A DNA stretch of 36,099 bases from a virus. The notes below the pieces were generated by a model. It was not told the origin of the DNA. It did no database searches and saw nothing but the letters and a program-made list of their open reading frames with translations. A program made the position numbers and the translations under genes. Positions 22,424 through 23,503 of this stretch are shown piece by piece. Position 1 is the stretch's first letter, and every line of letters starts with the position of its first letter. The stretch covers positions 1 through 36,099 of the IMG/VR virus record IMGVR_UViG_3300027902_000667. One strand, given 5' to 3'.

Positions 22424-23503
22424 ATGACTAACCGTCAAATCCGCTTTTTCTCCCTGGCCATGCTGTTCGCCTTCATCGTGGCGGCCATGCTCGGCTATGT
22501 GCATCACGACGTCGGCCTCGGCAGCCTCGGTGGCCTGGTCGTCATTGGCAGCACCACGGCCTTCCCGGTCAATCCAACCCTGACCTCGATCGCCATCGGC
22601 TACCGCAACCCGGATGCCAACCTGATCGCCGACCGCGTCTTGCCGCGCGTCCCGACCGCCAAGAAGTTCGTTTATTCGCTCTACAGCGCGGCGCAGGGCT
22701 ACACGGTGCCGGATACCAAGGTCGGCCGCAAGTCCGAGCCGACCATGGTCGACTTCCAGGGCCAGCTGATCAACAGCGAAGTGGTTGACTACGGTCTCGA
22801 TGACCTGGTCACGTTCGATGAAATCCAGGCGTTCGAAGACATGGCCAATCCGGCCTCCGGCGGTCCCATCGACCCGCAGGCCCTGAGCACCATGATGCTC
22901 GCCAGCCTGGTGGAGCTGGATCGCGAGATCCGCGTCGCCGGCACCGTGTTCAATACCTCCAACTATACCGGCGCCAATCAGGCGACGCTCTCGGGCACCA
23001 GCCAGTGGAGCGACTTCGTCAACGCCAACCCGCTCAACGCGCTGTTGGCGGCCCTCGACCAGACCCTGATTCGTCCGAACAAGATGGTCATCGGCCAGCA
23101 GGCCTGGACCCAGCTGCGCCAGCACCCGAAGATCGTCAATGCCGTGTTCCGCACGCCGCAGAACTCGGGCTCGGTGCCGAAGCAGGCGCTGGCCGAGCTG
23201 CTGGAAATCGACGAGGTAATCGTCGGTACCGGCTTCGTCAATACGGCGAAGAAGGGCCAGCCGCCGACCTACGTTCGCGTCTGGGGCAAGCACTGCTCCC
23301 TGATCTACTCCTCGCTGCAGGCGGCGCAGATGGCGCAACCCTGCTACGGCTTCACCGCCCAGTGGGGGACCAAGATCGCTGGCGCGATCCCCGAGCCGAA
23401 GTCCGGCCTGCGCGGCGGCAATCGCGTCCGCGTCGGCGAGTCGGTGCAGGAAGTGATCTCCGCCTCCGATGCCGGCTACTTCTTCCAGAACTGCGTCGCA
23501 TAA
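22424..23503 (+). CDS. Major capsid protein with N-terminal hydrophobic extension
   Basis: 359 residues with a strong GGAG site at 22413-22416. From residue about 46 the sequence is a typical HK97-fold capsid protein of Mu-like phages (AFPVNPTLTSIAIGYRNPDA, LIADRVLPRVPTAKKFVY, RPNKMVIGQQAWTQLRQHPK, C-terminal DAGYFFQNCVA). Residues about 7-26 (RFFSLAMLFAFIVAAMLGYV) form a membrane-like helix that I do not expect in a capsid subunit. The prohead protease upstream might remove it. The gene is bordered by GGCCGG hairpins. Confidence 0.9.
   Translation: MTNRQIRFFSLAMLFAFIVAAMLGYVHHDVGLGSLGGLVVIGSTTAFPVNPTLTSIAIGYRNPDANLIADRVLPRVPTAKKFVYSLYSAAQGYTVPDTKVGRKSEPTMVDFQGQLINSEVVDYGLDDLVTFDEIQAFEDMANPASGGPIDPQALSTMMLASLVELDREIRVAGTVFNTSNYTGANQATLSGTSQWSDFVNANPLNALLAALDQTLIRPNKMVIGQQAWTQLRQHPKIVNAVFRTPQNSGSVPKQALAELLEIDEVIVGTGFVNTAKKGQPPTYVRVWGKHCSLIYSSLQAAQMAQPCYGFTAQWGTKIAGAIPEPKSGLRGGNRVRVGESVQEVISASDAGYFFQNCVA

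Follow-up and report, generated by a model that had tools for sequence, protein, structure and literature searches.

To our knowledge, the shells of tailed phages are thought to be assembled from soluble cytoplasmic capsid protein, with the membrane playing a part at most through the portal. The viral DNA analyzed here, a 36,099-base record with a Mu-like gene order that is called the window throughout, raises the question of whether a major capsid protein may itself be addressed to the membrane. An initial annotation had proposed that this protein is translated with about 45 extra residues at its N-terminus, among them a hydrophobic helix. Is this extension a genuine part of the protein and, if so, what might it do?

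Head genes of the window phage

Protease, nested scaffold, cement and capsid genes are present in the window in the B3/BcepMu-type order (Table 1), and the nested scaffold arrangement is annotated likewise in B3, KS10 and RcapMu. The capsid reading frame (22424-23503, plus strand, ATG start) encodes 359 amino acids. Residues 45-359 match phrog_1005, the B3/BcepMu-type major head protein, with an E value of 7.7e-83, and residues 1-42 fall outside this profile. A confident HK97 fold was predicted for the core by AlphaFold, with a mean pLDDT of 89.6. Among solved folds the nearest is BB3626 (3bjq), with the lambda capsid also one of the best PDB matches, and 3bjq was the sole sequence relative recovered in PDB profile searches.

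A scan of the window head region for promoters and terminators found none. Directly after the capsid stop codon, at 23511-23561, a run of ten C precedes a GC-rich inverted repeat, CCCGGCCGG...CCGGCCGGG, which was not called a terminator because it has no T run. Elsewhere in the window, a 658-residue reading frame (12211-14187) has a second half made up of imperfect Ala/Gly-rich repeats in a long run.

Table 1. Features of the capsid gene and of the head genes upstream of it, in window coordinates.
Feature	Coordinates	Strand	Basis
Prohead protease with scaffold domain	20897..21997	+	phrog_976, E 2.2e-129; ATG 20897
Nested scaffold protein inside protease ORF	21533..21997	+	Internal GTG start, AAGGAG site; sequence
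Cement/decoration protein, DUF2190 type	22010..22387	+	Pfam Phage_cement_2, E 3.2e-9; just 5' of capsid gene
Shine-Dalgarno GGAG	22412..22415	+	8 nt 5' of ATG 22424; sequence
N-terminal extension, residues 1-42	22424..22549	+	Homology of non-extended relatives begins at residues 43-47; homologous extension in 20 loci
Membrane-type helix, residues 8-26 (FFSLAMLFAFIVAAMLGYV)	22445..22501	+	Apparent free energy -1.65 (19 aa); AlphaFold helix 3-22
His-His-Asp turn, residues 27-29	22502..22510	+	Aligns with P-[HD]-[EH] or HHD turns of relatives
Second hydrophobic stretch LGGLVVIG, residues 35-42	22526..22549	+	Alignment; ends at start-Met position of relatives
Capsid core, HK97 fold, residues 43-359	22550..23500	+	phrog_1005 and AlphaFold

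Distribution of the extension among relatives

Well over a hundred relatives of the capsid protein were gathered by scans with two alignments, and each reading frame was followed upstream as far as its ribosome site. In 15 distinct IMG/VR phages and at five loci in bacterial genomes, that is, in 20 phages or prophages, the core is preceded by a hydrophobic extension of 37-45 residues, hereafter called the tag. The distribution is bimodal, as in about 120 other distinct relatives 0-8 residues precede the core. Recurrence of the tag across 20 loci is beyond chance. It was absent from the 11 cultured phages examined (B3, KS10, TJ1, Bise, RcapMu, QH16, HXX_Dennis, VPHZ6, POA1180, YPCBV-1 and AFS-2018a), whose annotated capsid starts lie no more than about 10 residues from the core; for Komp_PAO1_1, no capsid gene is annotated on the strand examined.

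On contig C1 of G622, a closed chromosome of 2,877,007 bases apparently from a cultured host, the tagged capsid gene lies inside a Mu-like prophage (L208-L210) that extends over about 715-746 kb, with genes for transposase, Gam, terminase, portal, protease, sheath and baseplate. Sequencing or assembly error was ruled out as the source of the tag, which is carried by independent contigs and by this closed chromosome. In the same prophage, gp37 matched in two overlapping pieces, possibly owing to a frameshift. On the 73.7-kb contig IMGVR_UViG_2602042090_000006, the similar capsid genes L145 and L149 lie about 45 kb apart, which suggests that two related Mu-like prophages are adjacent there.

Translation start of the capsid protein

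By alignment with the relatives, the extension in the window is 42 residues long, in good agreement with the length first proposed. The ribosome site ahead of it, placed at 22413 and described as strong, is present (Table 1) but is fair rather than strong. A ribosome site was found at the long start in 14 of 15 distinct tagged proteins and at the short start in 114 of the 120 untagged ones. The initial annotation had looked to relatives starting at the AFPVNP region as evidence against the extension; most relatives do start there, but 20 phages share the extended form. Because untagged relatives have an ATG and a ribosome site of their own at this position, and because the extension is shared by so many phages, the difference is a two-state trait and not a mis-called start.

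That the true protein begins internally, near the core, is very improbable. This alternative draws on the core being the start point in most relatives and on Met or Leu codons near the junction in a few tagged members. Against it, the in-frame ATG or GTG codons at window residues 13, 19, 22 and 26 have no Shine-Dalgarno match, as had been noted, and none lies nearer the core, within 16 codons of which the window contains zero start codons. Where tagged loci were examined in full, the start codons close to the junction lacked a ribosome-site match, apart from one weak match in L017. Purifying selection on the tag in most pairs and the presence of a homologous tag in many phages, described below, likewise argue against it, and an internal start was rejected on the start-codon survey together with the dN/dS ratios.

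Anatomy of the tag

In the window, the tag runs in frame with the core from a positively charged N-terminal tip through a membrane-type helix of about 19 residues and an acidic/His turn to a second short hydrophobic stretch. The helix had been placed at residues 7-26, and this is borne out: the best hydrophobic segment is residues 8-26 or 8-24, the helix is translated with the capsid protein, and the layout is conserved in many phages. The shorter segment 8-24 has a summed apparent free energy of -2.0; such insertion energies, summed without position weights on the Hessa scale, rank segments and do not measure them. In the AlphaFold model of the window protein, a confident helix at residues 3-22 is joined to the confident core by a disordered, low-confidence linker that extends to about residue 60. 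In the model of L016, helices at residues 2-23 and 29-40 were predicted with moderate confidence and would form a possible hairpin. G42 of the window protein is the equivalent of the start Met of relatives, most of which open with M-STxAFPxNP, and is followed by S43-T-T-A-F-P; S-T-x-[AP]-F-P or a similar sequence opens the core in the tagged and untagged classes alike.

In the 15 viral tagged members, one to three Lys or Arg residues always precede the helix. The insertion energy summed over the best 17-21 residues is negative in 14, and in 13 the linker from helix to core contains neither Lys nor Arg. Helix energies are marginal in L017 (+0.27) and in L001 and L028 (about -0.3). The helix is followed by a near-invariant Gly, usually by a turn with Pro and an acidic residue or His, and then by a short hydrophobic stretch that reaches the start-Met position of untagged relatives. 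As judged from the sequences, this layout of positive tip, helix and K/R-poor linker is of the signal-anchor or short membrane hairpin type. The extension of a distant capsid relative, L198 (= L211), resembles a textbook cleavable signal peptide (MSKTIKWVFVLAALVFCGAAMA, with the cut before GV).

Evolution of the tag

Pairwise dN/dS ratios were 0.07-0.37 for the capsid core. Among pairs with usable dS, most tag ratios fell between 0.28 and 0.71, and a single pair (L112/L114) reached 1.0; in some pairs silent-site divergence was too high for a core or tag ratio. The tag has therefore evolved faster than the core, but mostly as protein-coding sequence, with ratios below 1 in most pairs. It is under purifying selection in most pairs. 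In tests with a 12-tag profile, held-out tags scored better than all 200 block-shuffled controls, which preserve hydropathy blocks, in seven of eight cases. In leave-one-out profile tests the window, L028 and L017 passed, L031 nearly did, and L086 failed with its sister L036 also left out. On these profile comparisons the tags are mostly one homologous module, and in view of the same outcomes those of L036/L086 and of L197 may be separate inventions.

A tree of 59 capsid cores implies nine tag changes (8-10 across bootstrap trees), counting gains and losses alike with direction not distinguished, and at least four changes are forced by well-supported branches. Forcing the 14 tagged rows of this tree into one group lowers the log-likelihood by 352 units (AU p 3e-9), and the tag as a marker inherited by a single clade was thereby ruled out. 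The tag is present or absent within otherwise similar head gene sets. Untagged L010 and L002 share 81-86% identity with the window in the cement protein and 76-79% in the capsid core, and similar sister pairs of tagged and untagged phages are L016/L023, L017/L020 and L031/L021. Because such close relatives do without it, the tag is dispensable in general. The tag of L014 is 54-56% identical to those of L016 and L194, which is above the trend prediction for cores that are just 63% identical; this hints that the tag itself may have been exchanged between phages.

No standalone tag gene was found in 34 whole records, and PHROGs and NCBIfam gave no consistent family for it. No partner gene tracked the tag cleanly among five near-complete and seven partial tagged records compared with 10 untagged ones. 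Nor was there a link to tail type, as a window-like sheath occurs in six tagged records but is lacking from the near-complete G006, G008 and G010. A search of the open-access literature found no account of a tailed phage whose major capsid protein bears a membrane helix, which is weak negative evidence.

A possible role at the membrane

The best explanation for the tag, which we hold tentatively but regard as a serious possibility, is that the tagged precursor is tethered to the membrane before or during prohead assembly and that the tag is then removed near the G42-S43 junction. The 42-residue hydrophobic tag would direct freshly made capsid precursor to the cytoplasmic membrane, on its inner side, where the tag would act as a signal-anchor or short helical hairpin and keep the precursor until the prohead is assembled. 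It would then be cut off, with the phage prohead protease as the probable enzyme, leaving a mature shell protein that starts like its untagged relatives. For removal, the S-T-T-A-F-P after the junction matches the N-terminus of those relatives, and phage XM1, discussed below, offers a precedent; against it, no cleavage motif is recognizable. The membrane step has weak points of its own. The charge layout predicts an N-in/C-out orientation; unless the second hydrophobic stretch doubles back, the core would then be misplaced across the membrane. In addition, sister phages manage without the tag. The marginal helix energies of some members and the want of a partner gene that tracks the tag cleanly also count against it.

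Chief among the alternatives, though unlikely, is that the tag stays out of the membrane as a very short delta-type domain inside the prohead, where its helices would bundle under the capsomers or dock on the scaffold until the protease removes it. Protease-cleaved N-terminal assembly domains are known in HK97 and inferred for phage XM1, and the protease is present and conserved in tagged phages. Since the window encodes a separate nested scaffold (GTG 21533, AAGGAG), however, scaffolding need not depend on the extension alone; untagged sisters also assemble without it, and membrane-type hydrophobicity with a positive tip would be unusual for a soluble assembly domain.

The signal-peptide layout raises instead the idea of a classical export or targeting signal that is cut by host signal peptidase or only places translation at the membrane. 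The textbook A-M-A site before G that follows the L198 helix, and A-x-A sites in L016 and L025, fit this account. By eye the A-x-A site is absent from the window and from several relatives, and an exported capsid protein would be lost from the compartment in which DNA is packaged, the cytoplasm, so that we consider this account rather improbable. We give little credence to the tag as a fast-changing shield or decoy, gained and lost under capsid-sensing defenses or capsid-stealing satellites: its patchy presence and fast evolution would be accounted for, but the conserved membrane-helix layout would be left unexplained, and a link to defense or satellites was not found.

The recurrence of the tag, with its coming and going between close relatives, suggests that the shell protein is handled before assembly in a manner not yet described. 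The broader proposition, that a lineage of tailed dsDNA phages tethers its capsid precursor to the membrane by a dedicated, exchangeable N-terminal module with proteolytic release, a route gained and lost repeatedly, is possible but more doubtful. If membrane tethering is correct, hundreds of subunits per particle would be addressed to the membrane and would have to be cut free. Capsid assembly would thereby gain a new point of control, and the sister phages would provide a natural comparison of the tag on and off.

Comparison with known systems

Profile, fold and gene order all place the window capsid protein in the B3/BcepMu-type family, and only the N-terminus sets it apart. It shares the phrog_1005 profile, the HK97 fold and the residues from S43 on with members that start at (M)SxxxFPxxP, whereas in the window the FPxxP arm has no start directly before it and 42 residues with a membrane-type helix come first. 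Because a start close to FPxxP is a common trait and not one that defines the family, the protein is a variant within phrog_1005.

Like the delta domain of HK97-type phages, the tag is an N-terminal addition ahead of the mature capsid domain that may be cleaved by the prohead protease. It differs in being about 40 hydrophobic residues encoded alongside a separate scaffold, compared with about 100 soluble residues for delta, and because that scaffold exists (start 21533) the tag is not a delta domain of the HK97 type by the one defining feature tested. Another point of comparison is Vibrio phage XM1, also contractile, in which the virion map lacks the first approximately 30 residues of the capsid protein, and their cleavage was inferred (PMC10457771); putative N-terminal removal would be common to both, and the XM1 protein was not recovered as a sequence relative of the window capsid in PDB profile searches. 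Bacterial signal peptides and anchors share with the tag the positive tip, the hydrophobic helix and the K/R-free stretch behind it, but the tag is fused to an icosahedral shell protein and has no consistent signal-peptidase site. Finally, a link between prohead assembly and the inner membrane, proposed here for the window phage, has a precedent in T4, where prohead assembly starts on the inner membrane via the portal (PMC9958956). There, the portal and its chaperone bind the membrane, whereas in the window phage it is the capsid protein itself that bears the helix.
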